DNA from: Mermis nigrescens
Lineage: Eukaryota > Nematoda > Enoplea > Mermithida > Mermithidae
Direction: 5' to 3'
Assembly: GCA_036768485.1 (NCBI GenBank)
Contig: JAVLUZ010000412.1
Location: 558,001 to 622,000, forward strand
Length of the DNA: 64,000 nt
The translations under genes were made by a program, and so were the position numbers. The notes under the pieces were generated by a model that saw only the letters and a program-made list of their open reading frames with translations, made no database searches and was not told the origin of the DNA. Shown piece by piece: positions 16,354 to 61,700 of the stretch. Position 1 is the stretch's first letter, and every line of letters starts with the position of its first letter.

Positions 16354-38800
<22,447 letters not shown>

Positions 38801-46700: not shown

Positions 46701-49700
46701 ATATATTTCACTCATTCAAAAACTGTCAGGTTGCGAAAGACATCATAAAACACACTTAAACTTTAATTCTCCCTTAAAATTTATAATAAAGGATGTGGCT
46801 GCTTACAATCGCCAACATTGAAAAGCATTTTGCGACTACTGCGCATAACCGTTTTGAAATAAATAATGCTTGTAATTCAGGTGCTCCAACGATACCGTCA
46901 AAATTTGCCGTTGATCAGAAAGATAGTGTTATAGTAAATATCGGCGAAAATGCAACTATTTTTCACGAAATTTTCGCTAATCCGTTAAATCCGATTAAGA
47001 TACGATGGCAGAGAAAAGTTGGTGATACAGTGGAACACTTCGGTAAGTTTAATACATTAAACTGAAATATTTCACACATAAATGGCATCATACGAAACAA
47101 ATGTCGCTCTTAGCATAGTTTTTATTCAAAATATTTCATCGGTACTCAAAACATTTAGTGGGATTGAGTTGTTTCACTTAAGAAAACGTTTAACACGTTA
47201 AAAATTTCTAACTTATGCGGAATACGTATTCATCGCACAAAAGAAAAATAAGTGCTGAACTAGCCCTGCTTTGAACTTCTAACTACTGTAAATGTAGGGG
47301 CCTGCGTCTACAAGAGCGACACAGACCGGCCTAACATTACCTTCGAGATTTCACCTAGGTACGTAGGTACTTAAGTCTACGCTTAGTGCTGGCCCCGATC
47401 ATGCAGCCCTGGATAGCTTTCGATCTTTGGACCCTTACAGACCTTACGGCTTCGATCCCCTCAGCCCTAATATTGCTGGCTGCTTCTTGTCGGGTGATCT
47501 CAGCAGCTACGCCCTAAGACCTAAGGCTACCTACCTAGTCTCGGTATTTGCCGCGGAGGTCAGTTGACCTATCTCAAGCTCAAGTTGTTTATTTAACTTA
47601 TTTTCCAATCAGTGCCAGAATCGAAATGTTTTTGGTTCCTAATACGTGTAGCACGCTGAACTATGAAAACAACAACAACGAGCTCTATGCTGATCAATCA
47701 TCCTTAAAAATTAGATAATATTTTTGAACAATTTTTGGGTTGAGAAATAGAATTATGATTTCCAAATAAAATAAGCTATCATACGAAATTTACCTATCAG
47801 TCCACTATGATGGGAAGAAGTCCTCGACGTGGGTGTGGCCGACCTAACCCTCGGTATAACCAAAAACCACTGGGTAGGTTTTCTATATTTTAATTCGACG
47901 AAGAATTAACGGCCTATAGCCGGACAACAAAAATAAGCAACAAGAAAACGAAAACGTACGGACTATACAATCGTACGACTGGCCAACGAAAAAGCCAACA
48001 GCCAGACTACACTACAACGTTAAGTACACTGGCCTCAAGGACCATTACAGTAAAATAAACAAAGATCAATTTAACATAATACTGATAAGCTTTTATCTCA
48101 GATCGAAAGTTCTCGATTACACAAGCGGTATGCATGAAACAATTACTATTATCATACACTTAACTCTATGCTACCGGACAAGTATCTAGATGTTTTTTAT
48201 TATTGAAAATTTGGGGAAATAATGGGAAGACCGAAGGCATAGCCCACAGTACACTATCATAGATAGCTATTAGTATTGGCTATGTGATGGCTATCGCGAA
48301 CTGCTAAGGCAAGTTCGCCTACCGTGTAACTCTCAGTTACACTCCCCCACGTATAGAAAAAAATTAGTAACGAAGTGGAGAATTTTTTCGGGAGTACTCC
48401 ATCAACACTAGCGTCGGCGACGCTCTACAACTCGGCTCTCTGGCGTTCGCAACGCCTCTACTCTGGCGTTCGCAACGCCTCATCCTGAGCGAACGTGAAA
48501 AACGAAAATAAAAAGAACAAAAAAATAACAAATAACGATAACAAGTAACGGTCAACGCATGACCTCGTTCGCACTCAGGAAACCTCTCGAGCAACACTCT
48601 CAATGGCGCTAGGGATAACTATATTGTTGCCCGAGTAATGATGAACTCCGGTCTTGGACAACATAGCATAATATTCGATTATGCTGTCCCATCAGCCTTC
48701 TTCAGTCCCCGGGTAATGAGAAAAATTTTGAATTGAAAAAGTGTATAGATTGGGTGTAAATTAACCCCTTGTCCGTTAAAGAGTTAAGATACCATAATAG
48801 TAACACCGCTATTTGAGCAAAAGACAAATTAAAATACGGAATGATAAGGCAAAATTATGCTGTGCTGAGCAAAATTAAAGTCACTGACAAGTTAAAACAC
48901 GAGGTAACGATAAAAATGAGAAAAAATGGCAAATTATGCGAGATAACTGGGAAAATACGAGCACCGTCAAAGAAAAATTTACAGCAAGAGAAAAAATGAC
49001 AAGAGCAAAAATACACAGGAAATAAACGATACATGAAGTCCTGGAATCCACATCAGGACAAAAACGAAAAAATTGACGAAAAAGCTGCTGGTCGAATTTG
49101 ACGCCAAACGCAGAGTTCCAAAAAGTTCTGTACGTCAAACTTGTGAAGATAATTGGCCTTCAAGCCATGCGGTTTTCCGCGACGTTGTTGACGTTGAAAA
49201 TATTCTTGATCCGATTCAGGTTTGCGATGCGTATTCGAACGCTCGCGATACTGGTATGGCGATTGCCTACGCCGGTACATATGTTGGCGTAAGCGTCGAT
49301 GTGGATTGACTGGTCGATCGTCCTCCTCAAAATCGTCGTCATCCTCGTAGTCGTCTGCGTAACGACGCGGTATAGGTGGCGTCGGAGTGAATAATTGCTC
49401 CGGCGTAAAACCATACGATTGTTCACGTGAAGGTTCGCGTGGACGCTGTTGTTGTTGCGTAGCAGGCCACGGTTTAGGCAAAAGTGGACCGGGTTGAGGT
49501 TGTGGCTGATAGACCCCAGTGGCTGATTGACTTTGTTCCAACGGTGAGCAATACAATTGATCCCATTGCTGATGTTGACGGGATTGTGACCGGCCCCGAT
49601 GAGTTCCGTGGTTCGACTGAAGCTGACGGCAATATTCATAAGGCTGCTGCTGTCGCGGGCGCGACAGATGACCAGCATCGGCCTGTGAATACGCCTTGGA

Positions 49701-52700
49701 ACGCTCACGCGATTCCGTGAATTGCTGCTGTTGCCGCGGTTGGGTCTGCGGTCGTGTGTGTTGCTGTATATGTGGTTTTACTTGTGTTTGCTGTTGTACA
49801 TGTGATTGTGAGTGATGATGCGTTTGAGCATAGCGTTGCCGGGATGACTGCGGTTCTTGCCGCCTCGATCCCTTTTGGCTTAAACGCGCTCTTAATTTAG
49901 CTGCGACTTCAGCTTGAACAAGTCTTCTGACTCGTTGTTTTTCCAAATTCTTTAACTGATGTAAAGTGTGCTCGGATTTAGTATCGTAAAAACGATTCAA
50001 TTTAGCCTTATGTTTGTCTTCTGACATATGACAAACTTCTGAAGATTCAGCGAGAGAACCGGCGGCGCGTAATCTCGTCGCACGCCTTGGCATTTCCGTC
50101 GCCAAATTCTCATGATCGCGTTGCTCGATCGTCATGCGTGCTCTACGCATTTCAATTTGTGCCTCCAGAGAAAGATCGACTTCTGGCATATCAAGGCTTG
50201 CTGCGGATCCGCTCGGGTCCTGCGAGGATGCCTGCCGCCTCTCTCTTCGGATTTTCTCTAGCTCACCCTGAATTCAATGTTTGAGGTAAAACACAGATTT
50301 TTGTTGACCTCGGAAACGGTCAAACTGAACCGGTACTTCCAGTGGCGGGTCGGTTGCTAACCAAATTTGCCTAATCATGTTATGTAAGACATGTGGGCTT
50401 TCAATTCGTGCCGTTAACTCCGGGAATTCCGGGAAAGCCTCACTTGGCGAAGGTGTATAAGATTCACCAAGGAAAGCAACGCGCAACATGCGACGCAGCT
50501 GCTCCACCATGTGCCAGCCTATTGCGGCATTGCCGTAGGCGTACGCAAAGAAGTGTAACTTTCTATCCAAAAATTCCAATAACACTGTAGCGCACATGAC
50601 GTCAATTGTCGAGAAGATCGTCATGTGTCGATACTCCAAATCGTATAATGATTGAAATTCTCGGAAAATATCGAAAATATCGACCATTTGGCGCGTCGAT
50701 ATTAAGATTGGCGCTAGATGATCTGGCGCTGGAGACATCCTGTGCGGATAGAATTCCGGACAAACCTGATGTGCAACGCCATCAATCACCTCACTCGGTG
50801 CGTCAAGGTGCGGGTGCACGACCAAATACTGTAGCGGAACCTCGTACAACATCATTCCGGTTGTAATAAAGAACCGTATGTGCACAAAATATTGGTCTGG
50901 GTAAAATAATCGGTTAAAGACGCTCATTTTGCTAATAAACCGAGGTGCGGGCTCACAATCAACATCAGCCAAAGGCTGTGTGATTGTAGACCACACTAAA
51001 GGATGCGAGGGTGTGTCAGTCGTAGCCCGCGTAATGCAGATGTGCTGCGTACACTTGGTCGAAGTACACTTGGGCAGTTTCAACCAACTGATCGTACAAA
51101 CGCGTTCCTGCAACCTCACCCAGATAAGAACGTAACTTGTGCAATACGACTGGCGCAATAATGCATGGTGGTTCACGCGTCATATTTTCCTTCATGGTGA
51201 AAAAGTGCTGTACGTAGCGCGAGCGATTTTGCACTCTCGCGCTTTCTTCCGCGGAAATACGTTCGCGAATGGCTTGAATATGCGCAAGTACTGCGACTTC
51301 CATATTTGATGGTTGATTTTGAGTAACCTGTGGTTGAATATTCGCCACAGTACTCGACACACCCGTCATGGCCCTAGGAGCCGTAAAACGAGTATCAGGT
51401 GTCGACACGCCTTGTGGCGTGGACTGAGACGCAACTTGCGTGTACAACGCTACTTGCGGTGCTTCATGTGCAGCTAGTGTGCGTTGCGGTAACAGCAGAA
51501 AGCCTATAATCTCTGTCATGATGACATCAGGGTCAGCTTGACGCTCTGCCCAATCCGGCTGAGAAGTGGGTAAAGGTATGAGCGAACTGATGCCCAGGGG
51601 TGCCTGCTGATCCGCCGCAAGTGATTGCGAGACAATCGGTTGCGCAAGGGTAGTGGCCCCTTTTCGAGCCATTGCCGCGCATGTTACACGCGGTGGCGAC
51701 AAGTTTGCTTGTCTTTCCGCTTCAGCATCAGATAACGCCATCACCAAGCGTTTAGGAGATAAATCGTCATCCTCAGTGGAGATGGATGGTTCTACATCAA
51801 CCATAGGCGAATCGTAAGGAATATCGGTTTGCGAAGAAAACACAGAAGCTGGTGTACTCGAGGTAGTAGGTTTGGACTTAGGTTCTGTGTCAGGCGCATG
51901 AACCGGGCCCAAAACTGAGTCGGCAATGGCCTGCAAACCCTGAACTTGTAGGTCAGGATTGTCAAAAACATTAGCGTGAGCCAACGCTTCCGTTACAGAG
52001 GCAACGGTGGTGGCTGCAGCTATGGCCGCTGACTGTTGCGGAGTTGGTCCGTAAAAGTCCTCAACTCTGACTAATTCTCCGCCATCCGAATCAACTTCAA
52101 CTTCAGTCGCCGTGCTGGTCGACTGGCCTCGTGGTGGTTTACTGGACGACAACGGTATACGCACTCTGGCTTTTGGGCCGGTAGCCTTAATGTGCAATTC
52201 ATCGCCTGTAAACGAAATCGGCATAGGCTTTCTATTGTCAGTAATACGATTATTTTGCGAGCTACCTTCTATCAATATGAAGACATCGATAGTTATTAAG
52301 GCATCCATTGCTAAATAATGCTGCATGTCCCGAGTTAATGGTAAGCTCCACGCCTGTCCGAAATTATCAGGCGCGTTTGGATCAATATACATGTCAAAAA
52401 AGAATTCAGCCAAGCGCTTTAACGTGTGCAAATGCGCTGTGATACGTAAACGACGAGTAAACGCTCTCGCCAATGGCTGAATATCGATAAAATTTGCAAT
52501 GAACGGATCTTTCCAGTGCAGTTTGTTGCGAATCTCTGCATCCGGAATTGCCAAAATTTCCTCAAAAGTTGGCCCGTAAACATGGAAATACGCAAGTCGG
52601 TCTTGCGTAGGGTCATAGCAAACCATATATACGTTTGGTAAACGCGTTTCGAGCAACTGGTGAAGCCCAAACGGAGGTTGTGGGAACTTCGCCAGGTCCC

Positions 52701-55700
52701 AACAGAACACATGGCCGTTCGCGCTCGCAACTTGGACGTAGCGTACGAATGGGCCATGGAGGTCCTGGTAAGTGGGACATAGTTGCTTAAAACGCAAGTC
52801 CCAGGTCTTATAACCTCTGCCTTTTCTGTCATTAACAAATTCGGAATCGTAGCCTAAGAATAACGTGCCATTTGTCATATTCGATGGCTGAATCAACGCC
52901 AAAATGGCCCCAAAAGACTTCTGGTCATTGGTGATTATAACAGTGGGTAGAAGTCTGTTCTTTGGTACACGTGGGGTTACCAAAGGAAATCTACCAAATC
53001 TGTTCTCCCACCAGAGCTCTTGGTCGTTAATACGCTTTCTGTGATTTGTGACTATATGTGTTGCTTTATGTTTTATCCATTTTGCGGTAAGTGACTCTAA
53101 ACCGCCAACACGACTACCGTCATTTTGTGGCAGCGGGTCTGGTACAACCAAGCCCCGCTCCAAAGCCATATTGGTCAAAGCCGAACGAAACTCATCTAGG
53201 GACGCGGGATCACGCCCCTCGAATTTGCATCGGCGACCAGCTGCCTCCAGCAATGCCTCCTTGCTTGGGGTACCTTGTGCAGCCATGGGTCTGCAAAAGG
53301 AAAAACATTAGATAATGGTACGGCATGTGCTGTTTTAGAGCCATTTAATAAACGTATAGGCGCGCAGTCCTTAGCTTTTTGTTCCCTGCCCGGTAAATCC
53401 TCAAAACTTATGACTACTGCCGGGGCAAGAGGGCGATGTGGTAATTTTACCAACACAAAATCGCCAGGGACATACGCGTGTTTTTCCACAATTAAGTCAG
53501 AATAAGGTAGTTTAGGCTCAGGCAGAAGTCTATTCCTGTGAACGAGGTGAGTGATGAGAGGGTTATAGACATATGCGATTTTCGCAGTTTCAGGCGTAGG
53601 TAAGTCGATAATTCGATATGGACCAACACGCTTGGGTGATAGTTTACCGATTTCGGGTTGAATGACTGAGGTATTATTAAGATAGACTATATCCGAGAGA
53701 TTAAAATTTGTGTGCGTTACGGACTTGTCATATTGCGATTTTTGCTGCTTACGCGCTTGAGTTAAATTTTGAGACGCAATCTCATGTAGATCTTGTAAAG
53801 TCAGCTTTAAATCAATGACGTATTTTTCCGCAACAGATGGTAAGTTCGGATTTATCACGAAGTCATTTATAAGTAAAGTGTCAAGTGGAAATGCTGGTTC
53901 ACGACCATAAAGCATTTCAAAAGGAGATATGTTAGTCGATGATTGCGGAGTCGCGCGGTATGCAAATAATGCGAAAGGTAGAAATTGCTCCCAATCATAC
54001 TGGGATCGCGCACTCAGCTTAGACAAACAATCAATCAATGTGCGATTATAACGTTCCACCAACCCATCACACTGGGGGTGATATGGGGTTGTAAATATTT
54101 TTTGAACGTTTAATAGTTTGCAAACTTCCGAAATAAGGGTAGATGTAAAATTTGACCCCTGATCTGTCAAAAATTTCTTGGGAACTCCATAACGTGGTAT
54201 AATTTCTCTTAGTAATAAATTTGCGATAGTTGTTGCTTTTATGTCAGAAACAGCAAAAGCTTCCACGTATTTTGTAAAATAATCCATAAAAACTACAATT
54301 TGGTCATTTCCGGAGGGGATCGCGGCATATGCAAACAATTGCACGCAATGAGTTCAAAGGGCGCGGATACTTCGATTGGTTGCAATGGAACGGATGTGGA
54401 ATTTAATGCGACCTTACGTTGTAAGCACACATCACAATTCCGACACCACGCGATCACATCATTTTCCATGCGCGGCCACCAATAACGCATTTGAATGGCG
54501 GGCAAGATTTTGCGCGATGAAAAATGAGCTCCAAAAATAGAGTCATGAAATTCCGTTAATATAAAGCGACGCAAAGATTTGGGTATGACTATTTGATGAA
54601 CGACAGTTGGTGAACGCTTAGGTTGGAATCGACAAAAAAGTACATCGTTTACGAGAAAAAATTCGTCACGATATTTTTTCGTTGTTAAGTCATTCAATGC
54701 GATGCGAATTTTATGCAATTCGTCATCTGCACGTTGCTCAGCGAGTAAACGCGCAGGTGTTAGCATTTCAGCTTTTTCGGCATCGGTAAGTAACAGGCGT
54801 TCACGAAATGTAGGTGGTTTTGAATTAGTAGGATTGGTTTGCGCAGTAGGATTATTATTTTGCGCATTTGGATGATTAATTGGTGCAGTAGGCGCATTAT
54901 CGCGCGATCGGTCAGGTGGAACCGATTCATCATCTGACTCAGAGTCTTCCGATTCTAAATTTGTGATGTTAACGACGTTTTTGCGCTCGACTTTATATTT
55001 GCGTTCTGCATGATCATATTTAGGATGTCGTGAAAGAAGATCAGCTGCGCAGTTATATGCACCAGGAACATAAACGATATCATATTCGTATTCCTGTAAC
55101 TTGAGACCCCAACGGCGTAATCGACTCGATGGGTCTTTAACATTTACTAGCCAGGTTAATGCTTGATGATCAGTTTCGACAATAAATTTTTTACCGTAAA
55201 GATAATGTCGATAATGCTTGATGGCCCACACTACCGCTAACGCTTCTTTTTCCGAAGTAGCATAGTTACATTCGGCAGAATTTAGCACGCGACTAGCGTA
55301 GCTAAGAATAAAACGATTTTTGGATGGTAAATGTTTTTGCGTCAAAATAGCACCTAACGCATAGTTACTTGCGTCAGTTGTTAAAATAAATTGGTGCTCA
55401 TCATCGAATTTTGGTAGTTGCAAAATAGGTGGGGACGTAAATGCTTTCTTCAGAAGCTCAAAGGCGGTTTGGTGTTCAGCCTTCCAGCAAAATTCGACAT
55501 CTTTACGAAGAAGATGGAATAACGGTTTAGCGATTTTAGCGAGATCTTTAACGAATTTCTTAAACCATTGGACTAAGCCAAGGAATTTCTGCAAGGATTT
55601 AACGGTTTTTGGTACGGGAAACGAGATTAAGTCTGCGACTTTGGACATATCAGGAGCTATGCCCATTGCACTAATGCTGTGGCCAAGAAATTTTACCTCT

Positions 55701-58700
55701 GCATGCGCAAGATGGCATTTATCAGGCTTTACGCGTAAGTTTGCCTTTTCAAGAGCAATAAAGACATTTTCAAGATCTTTTAAATGTTCTTTGAAAGTAC
55801 GTGAAAAAATAATTATGTCATCGATATAAACGAGACAAGATTTCCAATTTAGACCGGCGAGCACAAGCTCCATTAGTCTTTGAAAATCTGCGGGCGCATT
55901 CTTTAAACCAAAAGGTAAAACTTCAAATTCATAATGACCAACAGGACATATGAATGCAGTTTTTTCGCGAGATTTATTATCGAGTGGAATTTGCCAGTAT
56001 CCAGATTTTAAATCGAGTGTGCTAAAATATGCAGCATTGCCTAAGGTATCAAAATAATTGTCTAATTGTGGAAGAGGATAAACTTGCGTTTTAGTAACGT
56101 CATTTAACCGTCGATAATCGACGACCGGCCTAAGGGAACCGTCCTTTTTTCCAATGAGAAATAATGGACTTGCCCATGGGCTGGTTGTAGGTCGAATAAT
56201 TTTATCCGCAAGCATTTCATTTATAATTTTCTGCATAGATTCTCTTCTAGAATGTTCAACACGATAAGTTTTTCCAACAACGGGTGGATTATCCCCTGTA
56301 TCAATATGATGTTTCATCAAGGGGGTACGTCCGAGAGGTTCGTTTTTTAATGCAAAAATTGAGTCGTATTTTAAACAAAGTTCACGAATTTGTTGCTGTT
56401 GTCTAGAATCAACGGCGGAGCCGTTTAAAGCTTTATTTATTGATGCAAAAAGTTCTGGTGTCCTATCATCAAAAGATGAAACATGTGACACGACTTCGGC
56501 ATCAGAGGTTAAAGAACCTATTATTTCACCAGAGTCAATGCGAATTGGCGCTTTAGAGATGTTACAAACGCGAACAGGTATTAAGGGTTGTGAAGCATCG
56601 ACTATAGACGGAGCAACAAAAAGTGAAGTTTTTTCCATAAAATCGGGATTTGGTTCGAATAATGCGAAATCAAAATTGCAAGAACCGTGACTTATATAGC
56701 CAGGTGTAATTAATTCATGCCTAGGTTGTATTATAACAGGCTCAGGTAACGAAACATGCACACACACAACACCAGAGGTAGTTGTGTTGGGTTTCGCGCG
56801 AAATTGCAATTTTTCATGAGATGATAGTAAATTAACCTTTATGCCGTTTATAAAAGCACAACGCTCAATAGGATTAACCCACATGAGTGCGGATTCGCAA
56901 AAATCATATCCTAAGAGCATGTCTTCCGGCAAATGATCAATTATAGCTACTGAGGTAGAAATAGATTGTTCCGCGATGGTTAAAGTCATGTTTACTCTAT
57001 AACGAACTAATGCAGTGATTTCGCCTACACCATGTACGACTTGTGAAACTTGTTTAGGTGGTAAATTAAAACCAAGATGTAAGAATGCAGACGTGGTCAT
57101 CATGGTGACCTGTGAACCCGTATCTATGAGAGCAGGCATGTCAACGCCATGAACTTTAACGAGAATGGTGGGTAAATTTGTCCCAGCATGGCTTACGATA
57201 GGAATATTAGGATCTAAAGTCTTAGATGGAGGTAGATTAATTTTTTCATAAGTTGCAAGACGACGTTGTAAACGTTCGTACTCTTCAAGAAATTCTTGCG
57301 ACGCGAATAGATTAGGACGCGCGCTAGATTCTGGCCCTTTCGCAGTAACCGTGTTTACATCATGAGGAGATGTAAGGGTTGGCTGCGGTGGGGGCACATT
57401 CATGGCGGGTTGGTTATCTGGCGGTATATGTGACATACGGGCGATTAAGGTTATTGTCGTTGCGATAGTTCGAGTTATAGTATGTCCCACGTTGTTCATT
57501 TGGGAATTGCACAAAAGGTGTATTTTGGCGCGGTTGATTATTATAACGATTATCGTAACGCGAATTTTGATAATTAGCACGCGAATTTTGGTAATAATCA
57601 TTACGATTTTGCCGAAAATTCGATCGTGATTGCTTTGATTCAAAGCGATTATCATTATTCGCATAGTTAGATGAACGATGTTGACTAGAGTTACGATATC
57701 GTGATTGAGATTGATGTCTATTTTGCGAATTCGAACGCGATGGTGAACAATTTTGACGCGAAAAAGAACGCGATTGGCTGCGATTGCGAGCCATAGAGTT
57801 ATTATTTTGATCAGCTTGGGTATTATTATTAGTATTATTAGACGTTTCTTGCCTTTGACGCGTGAAACATTCCTCATAAATGTCACCTATGCGCTTTGCA
57901 AAAGGTACAATATTTACGAGAAGAACTTTCTGGTTTCTCAGCACGTGATGAGCGATGAAACGTTCTATGACGTGAACGATTTGAATCATTTTGATTAGAT
58001 GCGCGAGGAGTATCTTTAGGTACTGCGCTGTCTACGGGAGCAGCTGTTACCGATACGTAAGGCGTTACTGCCTTTTTATCCTCAAATTCTTTGTTAGCAA
58101 ATTCAGCGCTTAGCGCATTGTCCAAAAATTCAGCTAATGATGCTCTAGGTTTTTTATGATATGCCTCTTTCGAAATGTGTGGTAATAAACCTTGTTTTAG
58201 TTGATGTCGCATTAAATTATTGAAATGTGGCGAGTCAACTCCAAGATAAGGATCAGATTAAATTAACTCTTCGCGAAGCGAGAGATAATAAGCTTTAGCC
58301 GATTCGTTAGGCTGCTGTTTGTATGACAAAAAACGATTAAAGAGCACACCGGTGTCCATTGGACAAAATTCGGTTATTAGCGCTTGTTTTGTTTTTGAAT
58401 ACGATTGTTGTATATCAGCAGGTAACAAACGGTATAAACGCATAGCATAAGGATCAAGAAATCCAGTCGCGAATTTTAAACGATCAGCTTTGTCAATATC
58501 ATAGGTATTGGCAAGTGATTCAAATTCTGCAAAATATGCTTTCATATCCGATTTATCGCCATCAAAAAATTTTTATTAGCAATTGCAAATTGCATTTGTG
58601 TCAAAAATGGTCCGCGATTCAAGGAATCAGCGAGACGTGAGTCACCACGCAAGCTTTCAGATGAAGAACCTGAACTATAACGATGACGTCGTCTGCGCGA

Positions 58701-61700
58701 TCGACTTTTGCGACGCGAGTGACGACTGCGCGGGCGCTCATATCTGTTAGATGAGCTTTCGTCAGAAAATTTGACATGTTTTCTCCTACTAGATGATTCA
58801 GGTAGAGGCGCAGATTCATTTTGCAAATTTGCAGGTTCGTGATTAATACCAGATAAATTTATCTCAACAGGTTGCATTTCGATATTAGAAGAATGCAAAA
58901 TAGGGTTATTAGGTGGTATTTCTACGTTGATGGGATTAGGTACATAGTTATTTGGTAAAATTTCGCCTTGAGGTGGAAAATACTGCAGCGGTGGTGGATT
59001 TAATTGCTGCTGCGAATTCGTAGTAGAAAGATTAGGTACAAAAGAAGGCGCATTACGATTTAAGGGCAGCGAAGGCCGAGATCGCGACGTCTGCAAAATC
59101 GGTACCGACGGCTACAAAATTGTAGGTATATTTTCCGAAAAACCCGAGTTTTGCACTGGTTGCAAACCCGTGTTTACAGGATTCTGTGACAAATTAGGTA
59201 TCTCAGGCGTGCGATTCGTAGCAATTTTGAATAATATTTTCAGGAACAGTTTCCGAAGGTGAGCGTGAATTTGATGCGCTGTTGCCAGTGGACAACAGTG
59301 AAGATGCCCGATGCGTACTTTGTGCACGATTCGCACTTTGCGCATTAAATTCAGAAAAATTTGCGCTATCGATTGAGTGGTTAACGCGCTCAGATGAATT
59401 ATTCTCTATGCGATTCAACACTGGTTGGGGTTTAAGCATAGTGCTTAGCTCCAGACGCAGTTTACGCATTTCATCCACATTTTCCTTTTTATCTTGATCA
59501 ACGCGCGTAGAAAGGTCCGAAAATTGCAAATGAATGGCTTGTAGCGCTTTCAAAATAAGATCATTAGTCACATTAGCATTAGCACACTCTCTGTCGGCAT
59601 TTATGCTGTGACTATGATTACTTTCTACGTCAGAATCGGGATTTTCGCGCTCCGAACTGGTTTCAGGATTATTTGCCATATTAATAGTAGTCGTATTATC
59701 AATCATTGTATGATTAGATGAATTGTCTATGTTAGGGTCCGATCTAGTTATCGAAGTTTGATTAATGCGCGATCGCATGGTACTCAATGACAGTTCATCT
59801 ACGGACTGTGTATTACTCGCGGCATTTAGTGACGCGGGTAATTTATCATTATTTGCCTTACTAGTTACGTCTCTCGTATTTGTGTCATTACTCGCAGAAT
59901 TACTCGCGCTATTAGAGTCAACAGGCGCGGTAGGTAATTGGCGAGCTGAAGTAGGTGGCGTAGAAGGTTTTTTCAATTTAGCGGGCGGTGTCCGCAAAAC
60001 CCTTTTTTCCTGCCATTTTTGGGTATCAAAAATGTCGAAAAATATGACCTTGGGTAAAATAAATTTCAGTACGTCGAAATTTAGCCCAAAATAAATGTTT
60101 CGAATTTGGCCTTTGTCGATCCGAAAAACAGGTTTTTCCACGTAAATAGTATTTCCTTACGTGAAGTAAGATATACCTGACGTGAAATGATCGAAAACAG
60201 GTAGGACTAAGCCTAGAGCGCAAGAAAGTGTACGTGGTTAGAAAAACAGGTATATAGGTAAAAACCTAAATGACGGAATTTCGTCGTCAGGAGAGAAAAA
60301 TGATAAATCGTCGCCTGAGGGTCGACGTTTATAGAAAAATGCGAGCGTGAAAGCTGCCTTCGTTGATGAAGGTTCGACGGAAATAGAAAAATAACGATGG
60401 CTTTACCACGATACACAAAATCTTTACCACGGACGCTTACTTAAATTGCGCACTGCCACGATCGCGGTCGATACAACAACAAAGGTGAACGAAATGTTAC
60501 ACATTCTTAGATGGCCAAAATGATAAATTTTTGGATCGAAAAATAATTTTACGATGATTGATCAGTTCGGCTGTAGCTAGCAGCCTAAAGGAGGGAACGT
60601 CCAATGTAAATGTAGGGGCCTGCGTCTACAAGAGCGACACAGACCGGCCTAACATTACCTTCGAGATTTACCTAGGTACGTAGGTACTTAAGTCTACGCT
60701 TAGTGCTGGCCCCAATCGTGCAGCCCTGGATAGCTTTCGATCTTTGGACCCTTACAGACCTTACGGCTTCGATCCCCTCAGCCCTAATATTGCTGGCTGC
60801 TTCTTGTCGGGTGATCTCAGCAGCTACGCCCTAAGACCTAAGGCTACCTACCTAGTCTCGGTATTTGCCGCGGAGGTCAGTTGACCTATCTCAAGCTCAA
60901 GTTGTTTATTTAACTTATTTTCCAATCAGTGCCTGAATCGAAATGTTTTTGGTTCCTAATATGTGTAGCACGCTGAACTATGAAAACAACAACAACGAGC
61001 TCTATGCTGATCAATCATCCTTAAAGATTAAATAATAATTTTGATCAATTTTTGGATTTGAGAAATAGAATTAAGATTTCCAAATAAAATAAGCTATCAT
61101 ACGAAATTTACCTATCAGTCCACTATGATGGGAAGAAGTCCTCGACGTGGGTGTGGCCGACCTAACCCTCGGTATAACCAAAAACCACTGGGTAGGTTTT
61201 CTATATTTTAATTCGACGAAGAATTCACGGCCTATAGCCGGACAACAAAAATAAGCAACAAGAAAACGAAAACGTACGGACTATACAATCGTACGACTGG
61301 CCAACAAAAAAGCCAACAGCCAGACTACACTACAACGTTAAGTACACTGGCCTCAAGGACCATTACAGTAAAATAAACAAAGATCAATTTAACATAATAC
61401 TGATAAGCTTTTATCTCAGATCGAAAGTTCTCGATTACACAAGCGGTATGCATGAAACAATTACTATTATCATACACTTAACTCTATGCTACCGGACAAG
61501 TATCTAGATGTTTTTTATTATTGAAAATTTGGGGAAATAATGGGAAGACCGAAGGCATAGCCCACAGTACACTATCGTAGATAGCTACTAGTATTGGCTA
61601 TGTGATGGCTATCGCGAACTGCTAAGGCAAGTTCGCCTACCGTGTAACTCTCGCAGTTACACTACGGATAACAAGAGAAACACAGCTTAATCAGTCTGGG

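Follow-up and report, generated by a model that had tools for sequence, protein, structure and literature searches.

A Gypsy retrotransposon of Mermis nigrescens with a large third gene predicted to encode a DEDDy 3'-5' exonuclease

The subject of this study is a Gypsy element, 14.4 kb long, situated on the minus strand of a 64,000-nucleotide stretch of DNA from the nematode Mermis nigrescens (contig JAVLUZ010000412.1, positions 558,001 to 622,000; this whole stretch is referred to as the window, and its own numbering is used throughout). The element encloses an open reading frame (ORF) at 51016-53286, which we identified as the first part of a much longer third gene, ORF3. Judged by sequence comparison, the product of this gene almost certainly has a DEDDy 3'-5' exonuclease as its first domain. 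The parts of the element, including its long terminal repeats (LTRs) and the segments encoding reverse transcriptase (RT) and other enzymes, are as follows.

61662-61665: target-site duplication GTAG, 5' side
60605-61661, minus strand: 5' LTR, 1057 bp, TG...CA ends, 98.3% identical to the 3' LTR
57883-60156, minus strand: gag region, split over several frames
54293-57886, minus strand: pol, first frame (protease, RT, RNase H, integrase H2C2)
53196-54353, minus strand: pol, second frame (integrase core), frameshifted in the window copy
51016-53286, minus strand: ORF3, first part, 756 codons up to an early stop; ATG at 53286
50274-51023, minus strand: ORF3, second part (C-domain, residue 755 onwards), in another frame than the first part; stop at 50274
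49137-50273, minus strand: ORF3, third part (to residue 1383), a basic, Q-rich tail
48342-48352, minus strand: polypurine tract recognized by eye, purine-rich GTGGGGGAG, directly before the 3' LTR
47287-48341, minus strand: 3' LTR, 1055 bp, TG...CA ends
47283-47286: target-site duplication GTAG, 3' side

The element has the features of the Gypsy group (Metaviridae), i.e. LTRs with TG..CA ends, a target-site duplication, a purine tract, and the pol order protease-RT-RNase H-integrase. The two LTRs differ by 9 transitions and 5 transversions over 1054 sites (Kimura two-parameter distance 0.0134). Within the gag region, the piece at 58258-58572 matched Retrotrans_gag (E=3.7e-4; 21.1 bits, under the 24.1 cut-off) and the piece at 57883-58257 ends, by eye, in a Cys/His stretch. 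The pol region that is split in the window copy forms a single frame in the copy L012. The sequence 3' of the 5' LTR was read for a primer binding site and no tRNA was assigned to it; scanning the window for Rfam families and tRNAs gave 0 matches.

The start of ORF3 and the end of pol share about 90 nt, which are read in different frames. When the window copy was compared with a long-frame copy, residues 1-753 were found at 53286-51028 and residues 755-1383 at 51023-49137, in another frame. The two frames that follow the 756-codon frame therefore represent the rest of ORF3. In long-frame copies ORF3 is one protein of about 1383 amino acids (aa), and the window copy is broken by a frameshift at about 51025 and the stop at 50274; the third ORF of 756 codons described in the original prediction is thus a fragment. 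Among 20 fetched copies, picked for their long frames, the protein was 1389-1392 aa long in 19 and 1373 aa in one. It consists of the DEDDy exonuclease domain, a linker rich in Pro, Ser, Thr and Ala, a conserved C-domain and the basic Q-rich tail. In the window copy, the three pieces of ORF3 contain no further Pfam domain. The C-terminal region of about 630 residues (49137-51023) had no significant Pfam, NCBIfam or PHROGs family, and among the ORF3 types compared (see below) only type E contained a relative of it.

The genome from which the window is derived (524 Mb, 860 contigs) was searched for further copies. From 2785 candidates, 59 were scored, and these are ORF3 copies of the window family with 85-100% identity over 756 residues; eight of the 59 contain an in-frame stop within the match, and in 25 the open frame is at least 1370 aa long. 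The corresponding LTR search scored 40 of 2744 candidates. Pairs of LTRs in the same orientation, about 13.3 kb apart, bracket ORF3 copies on contigs C59, C61, C533, C64 and C424, although the first three may duplicate one insertion, because their ORF3 scores are equal. ORF3 therefore belongs to the element, as its third gene after pol. The LTRs, the target-site duplication and the 59 copies bear out the original placement of the frame downstream of Gypsy pol within an LTR element; it had also been proposed that absence from other copies would point to a host gene, and the frame proved to be present in them.

At least five types of Gypsy ORF3 (A-E) occur in this genome, with the window family constituting type C. 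A window-like integrase was detected beside 17 of 30 loci matching PF01612 (tblastn, E<=1e-3), and by eye beside two more, L044 and L053. The integrase is directly followed by the ORF3 frame in type D (546 aa in L076 and 534 aa in L080) and in type E (L079), where the frame runs for 922 aa before the stretch examined ends. Among the types compared, the nearest relative of the window family is type E, with 62% identity in the integrase and 34-35% in the exonuclease, and a type C profile matched it at 7.4e-35. A B-type query of the genome gave 146 matches from 748 candidates, with identity down to 24%.

The exonuclease domain escapes direct detection. The best Pfam match of the window protein had an E-value of 0.22, which is not significant; queries with the whole frame and with the domain against a set of 5.8 billion proteins, and PDB phmmer, NCBIfam and PHROGs searches with the window protein, also returned no significant match. 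The window domain could not be told apart from shuffles with a profile of ten bacterial RNase D/PolA/exonuclease domains, for which hhalign gave P=0.022 (prob 2.2%). The identity of the domain could nevertheless be established, because relatives from the same genome bridge the gap. A PF01612 search of the genome produced 90 matches, 46 of them above the Pfam cut-off, and many of the matches lie in open frames 200-550 aa long that are spread over numerous contigs; three matches under the cut-off belong to the window's own family (C11, assigned by position, L077 and L078). A profile of types A and B, from which the window protein was excluded, scored 65.0 bits on the window domain (E=8.2e-18 for 24,736 models); it comprised 17 of 20 aligned rows (A 10, B 7; the partial L047, L061 and L063 were dropped), whose ends were trimmed on an alignment containing ORF3 before realignment without it. 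Single-type profiles gave 38.9 bits (A) and 41.6 bits (B), and the best of 20,000 shuffles reached 8.3 (A+B), 7.6 (A) and 11.6 bits (B). With the sister copy L022 as the target, the scores were 64.7, 38.6 and 40.0 bits, respectively.

An 11-row profile that combined A, B and the window protein matched WRN (2fbt, 2.5e-12), EXD2 (1.9e-8), NrnC (5.9e-7), Egalitarian (2.2e-6) and mut-7 (1.4e-5), and aligned with bacterial RNase D at 96.7% in hhalign. A profile of types C, D and E, with A and B excluded, matched Egalitarian (6.7e-5) and WRN (0.0027). All nine of the type A/B frames that were examined exceeded the PF01612 cut-off, as did the frame L043, a count that is circular because the PF01612 search supplied those frames. 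The DEDDy reading of the original prediction was thus upheld through same-genome relatives, while the direct match to DNA_pol_A_exo1, for which it had proposed a search, was not significant.

Two of the loci found by PF01612 are of separate interest. L043 (C147:10885-11184) is a 161-aa frame (E=8.4e-9) beside which an integrase was not found, and is possibly a host exon. At C728:216624-221285 (L039, L055) the match is split over four short frames, and this locus looks like an intron-bearing host DEDDy gene.

The domain and its motifs were located as follows, with conservation given for the 20 fetched copies and for the rows of two family alignments, A2 and A3.

52231-52971, minus strand: DEDDy exonuclease domain, ORF3 residues 106-352
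52840-52848, minus strand: Exo I, D147-x-E149 (20/20 copies; A2 rows D 10/11, E 11/11)
52600-52602, minus strand: Exo II, D229 (20/20 copies; A2 rows 11/11, A3 rows 4/4)
52303-52317, minus strand: Exo III, Y324-xxx-D328 (20/20 copies; A2 rows 11/11, A3 rows 4/4)

The motifs D-x-E, D and Y-xxx-D are present in the window domain in DEDDy order. The five residues originally proposed as the active site (Asp147/Glu149, Asp229, Tyr324/Asp328) are invariant in the 20 copies and intact in 13 of the 14 distinct rows of the two alignments. We also compared pairwise ratios of nonsynonymous to synonymous substitution (dN/dS, as the ratio of means) between the regions of ORF3 in these copies, after removal of pairs with dS<=0.03 (174-184 of 190 pairs kept per region). 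The ratio was 0.060 for the exonuclease, 0.132 for the C-domain, 0.137 for the tail, 0.191 for the N-terminus and 0.275 for the linker; as the copies were selected (18 of 20 distinct, with two identical pairs) and the pairs are not independent, only the contrast between regions is usable. The exonuclease is the region of ORF3 under the strongest constraint, which reflects purifying selection.

The presence of several linked pol/ORF3 families in one genome turns the question of shared versus independent capture, left open in the original prediction, into a tree problem. Trees were built for 11 loci that carry an integrase in physical linkage with the exonuclease. The integrase and exonuclease trees both recovered C+E, D and A with 100/100 support each. 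At greater depth, the integrase tree places C/E with D (93/92) and the exonuclease tree places C/E with B (63/91), leaving D unplaced; the conflict between the trees is not significant (lowest p 0.0699). The type B clade is weak in both (41/42) and is absent from the best exonuclease tree (p=0.42). Long branches were flagged in these trees, and the terminal branches of the exonuclease exceed those of the integrase in length by a factor of about 3.5 for C and E and of about 6 for L067 and L051. One old shared acquisition appears the likeliest origin for types B, C, D and E, since the two trees concur at their well-supported nodes and none of the conflicts tested fell below p=0.05. This is reinforced by type E, which has the C-domain of type C (E=7e-8, 22% over 309 residues).

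The rival possibility, that the exonuclease was captured or exchanged independently several times among Gypsy lineages, is in our opinion the less probable one, but it deserves serious attention, above all in the case of type A. In an RT tree, type C (with the relatives P0001 and P0002) and type B (with P0004 and P0006) fall in one 12-row clade (100/100), and type A lies outside it (84/86). Forcing A into this clade was not rejected (p=0.107; 26 hand-picked of 120 listed pol relatives), and type A may have shared the acquisition or gained its exonuclease separately. An earlier version of the test (p=0.0008) was discarded as unfair, because near relatives of types C and B had been excluded by it. 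The exonuclease tree rooted on bacterial proteins joins B with C (85/78), while A+B (p=0.30) and A+C (p=0.135) were unrejected. In addition, no relation could be detected between the C-terminal regions of A, B and C, and bdelloid DEDDy ORFs were reportedly gained at least twice (PMC5408684). Against multiple captures stands, besides the agreement of the trees, a common segment after Exo I, seen by eye in types A, B and C and missing from the RNase D alignment.

Type A provides a further argument for a separate history, since L069:268-4875 has a match to a Monjiviricetes-type viral fusion glycoprotein (Pfam E=1.3e-17), in frame upstream of the protease; env-like and exonuclease genes therefore coexist in one type A element. 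The pol relatives P0001 and P0002, found on contigs of 9980 and 7483 bases, encode gag-pol 58% and 53% identical to the window pol, and by this sequence evidence close relatives of the window's element exist in other samples. Searches of viral contigs with the A2 alignment and with P0002 found no relative.

The mode of expression of ORF3 is suggested by a site immediately before its start.

53291-53312, minus strand: splice-acceptor-like site (CTAAT, a pyrimidine tract and TTTTGCAG), last G at 53291, the ORF3 ATG 4 nt on

The sequence directly upstream of the ATG reads TCTAATGTTTTTCCTTTTGCAG|ACCC. The site is unique among the 1432 CAGs on both strands of the window, by criteria (CTAAY upstream and a minimum of 12 pyrimidines in 15 positions) that were set after it had been seen; a stricter rule of at least 13 of 15 pyrimidines misses it. 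It is identical in 24 of 28 type C loci (23 of the 28 being distinct over 700 codons), with a single T/C difference in the other four. In the sister type E, CGTTTTCCCTTTTTCAG ends 19 nt upstream of the ATG, and in the type A locus L041 TTTCCTAG stands immediately before it. Donor-like GTAAG/GTAAA sites are present in the 5' leader (60407-60441). ORF3 is probably expressed from a spliced mRNA, like the env gene of retroviruses.

To our knowledge, retroelements usually lack a 3'-5' exonuclease. The explanation that we favour, with a little more confidence than doubt, is that a spliced third gene supplies a trans-acting 3'-5' exonuclease which trims 3' ends in the replication cycle. The gene would be expressed from spliced mRNA in an env-like manner, to give a large protein with the DEDDy domain, linker, C-domain and basic Q-rich tail; this protein would act in trans as an active exonuclease, held by its tail on the nucleic acid of the element, and would trim the 3' ends of RNA or complementary DNA. 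The separate coding of the protein and its basic tail fit a nuclease that acts in trans on the element's nucleic acid. We infer the function of the tail, splicing, activity and substrate from sequence, and with unequal confidence: the domain is likely to be an active enzyme, and a substrate within the element's own replication is plausible, though here we stop short of even confidence.

Several observations weigh against this picture. Proteins of types C and E have no significant direct Pfam match, and for L079 (type E) and L081 (type B by profile) no Pfam exonuclease was matched at E<=0.01; of the type D proteins, L080 is over the PF01612 cut-off and L076 under it (20.8 of 23.6 bits). Two B-like loci each lack one active-site residue, with Y in place of D147 in L052 and K in place of E149 in L048, a near relative of L052 outside both family alignments; L048 was read in a comparison from which L057 and frames shorter than 280 aa were excluded. 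The absolute dN/dS values are biased low, because the copies were picked for long frames and some are identical. Eleven other A, B and D loci inspected by eye had no comparably clear acceptor-like site, several of their starts being unsure, and coding constraint is a rival cause of the conservation of this site, because it encodes NVFPF of pol. Finally, between types the exonuclease diverges about 3-6 times faster than the integrase (terminal branches), which a host-directed role would fit equally well.

The last of these points keeps such a role open. According to this alternative, which we regard as unlikely but worth retaining, the exonuclease acts on the host and weakens silencing of the element by degrading or trimming small RNAs or their precursors. 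Host-facing proteins often diverge fast, and the divergence of the exonuclease between types is several times that of the integrase; that it is encoded separately from gag-pol, with a start and an acceptor-like site of its own, would also suit this function. Small-RNA DEDDy relatives (mut-7, EXD1, Maelstrom) have been discussed for the rotifer ORF3s (PMC5408684). On the other hand, the basic tail suits binding of element RNA equally, and conservation within the family is strong.

It is more doubtful still that the domain has lost catalysis and serves in RNA binding alone, as the corresponding domains of Egalitarian or EXD1 would. Egalitarian, in which the exonuclease-like domain is inactive, was the best PDB match of the C+D+E profile. 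EXD1 and Maelstrom are described as inactive (PMC5408684). The residues missing from L052 and L048 point in the same direction, but the five residues are intact in all 20 type C copies and in nearly all distinct family rows, and the exonuclease has the lowest dN/dS in ORF3.

An env identity for ORF3 is unlikely. It was tested roughly: a Pfam env match is absent from the window's three ORF3 pieces, and the highest 19-residue Kyte-Doolittle mean of the full-length protein (1.69, residues 325-343, inside Exo III) is marginal relative to the usual transmembrane rule of 1.6. The view that the frame is a host gene or a chance transduction outside the element has practically no probability left and was rejected, as it is contradicted by the 59 closely similar copies, by the LTR pairs flanking ORF3 at five more places and by homologues that sit after the integrase in other families. 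A chance occurrence of the motif was rejected too.

In broader terms, we tentatively envisage, as a possibility that we consider rather doubtful in its entirety, a Gypsy radiation outside rotifers in which a WRN/RNase D-type exonuclease was gained once before types B-E split, was kept active and separately spliced, and edits reverse transcripts or disarms small-RNA silencing. A lineage that keeps an exonuclease through deep divergence, with its active site mostly intact, allows the role of such an enzyme in a retroelement to be asked, with 3'-end trimming, editing and counter-silencing as the candidates.

A PWWP domain was recognized over the cut-off at the C-terminus of the integrase in L081:1-1398 (type B, 2.1e-15), L076:3-1322 (type D, 7.2e-11) and L079:364-1803 (type E, Pfam E 2.6e-9); the second pol frame of the window (53196-54353) has a weak PWWP-like C-terminus (E=0.042, below the cut-off). 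By analogy with chromodomains, the PWWP domain may steer integration to marked chromatin. No literature on an integrase-PWWP fusion was found by title. Elsewhere in the window, at 24040-24414 on the plus strand, lies a fragment of a host gene, presumably XPR1, in which an EXS domain was recognized (E=1.3e-20).

With cellular proteins of the DNA_pol_A_exo1 family (WRN, EXD2, RNase D, NrnC, mut-7), the window domain shares the order of Exo I-III, the D-x-E, D and Y-xxx-D residues and the W before PLT; it differs from them in being undetectable directly and in having the extra segment after Exo I (by eye). Dada elements resemble the window element as mobile elements with a DEDDy domain, for which 3'-end processing has been suggested, but they are DNA transposons in which the exonuclease lies inside the transposase (PMC3706591). 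A 2019 opinion paper citing Rodriguez 2017 and others names the DnaQ-like 3'-5' exonuclease, a domain of the kind described here, as a well-known accessory of LTR elements, in a passage without families or sequences (PMC6338049). In titles and abstract openings (subscription papers and preprints being outside the scope), DEDDy ORF3s of LTR elements were encountered only in work on rotifers.

The nearest precedent for the window ORF3 is provided by the DEDDy ORF3s of the bdelloid LTR elements Juno and Vesta and of Athena (Rodriguez et al. 2017, PMC5408684), the Athena/Terminon group being Penelope-like elements (Terminons also in PMC6431247); the original prediction was therefore right to name such rotifer ORFs. 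Like the window element, Juno and Vesta are LTR retrotransposons with a third ORF after pol and a DEDDy domain of the RNase D/WRN type, and their ORF3s are reportedly expressed from spliced messages (PMC5408684), which recalls the acceptor-like site described here. Processing of 3' ends was suggested for the bdelloid proteins, in which DEDD is altered to DEED (PMC5408684), whereas the window family has DEDD. Sequence markers gave weak evidence that the host is probably no rotifer: the nematode spliced leader SL1 had one match, with 2 mismatches, and a rotifer spliced leader had none at up to 2 mismatches, neither of which marks the host, while COX1 translated with table 5 looks ecdysozoan by eye. 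Likened here by description only, the nematode protein is distinguished from the bdelloid ones by its length of about 1383 aa, which includes a linker, a C-domain and a basic tail, and by the occurrence of at least five Gypsy ORF3 types in one genome.

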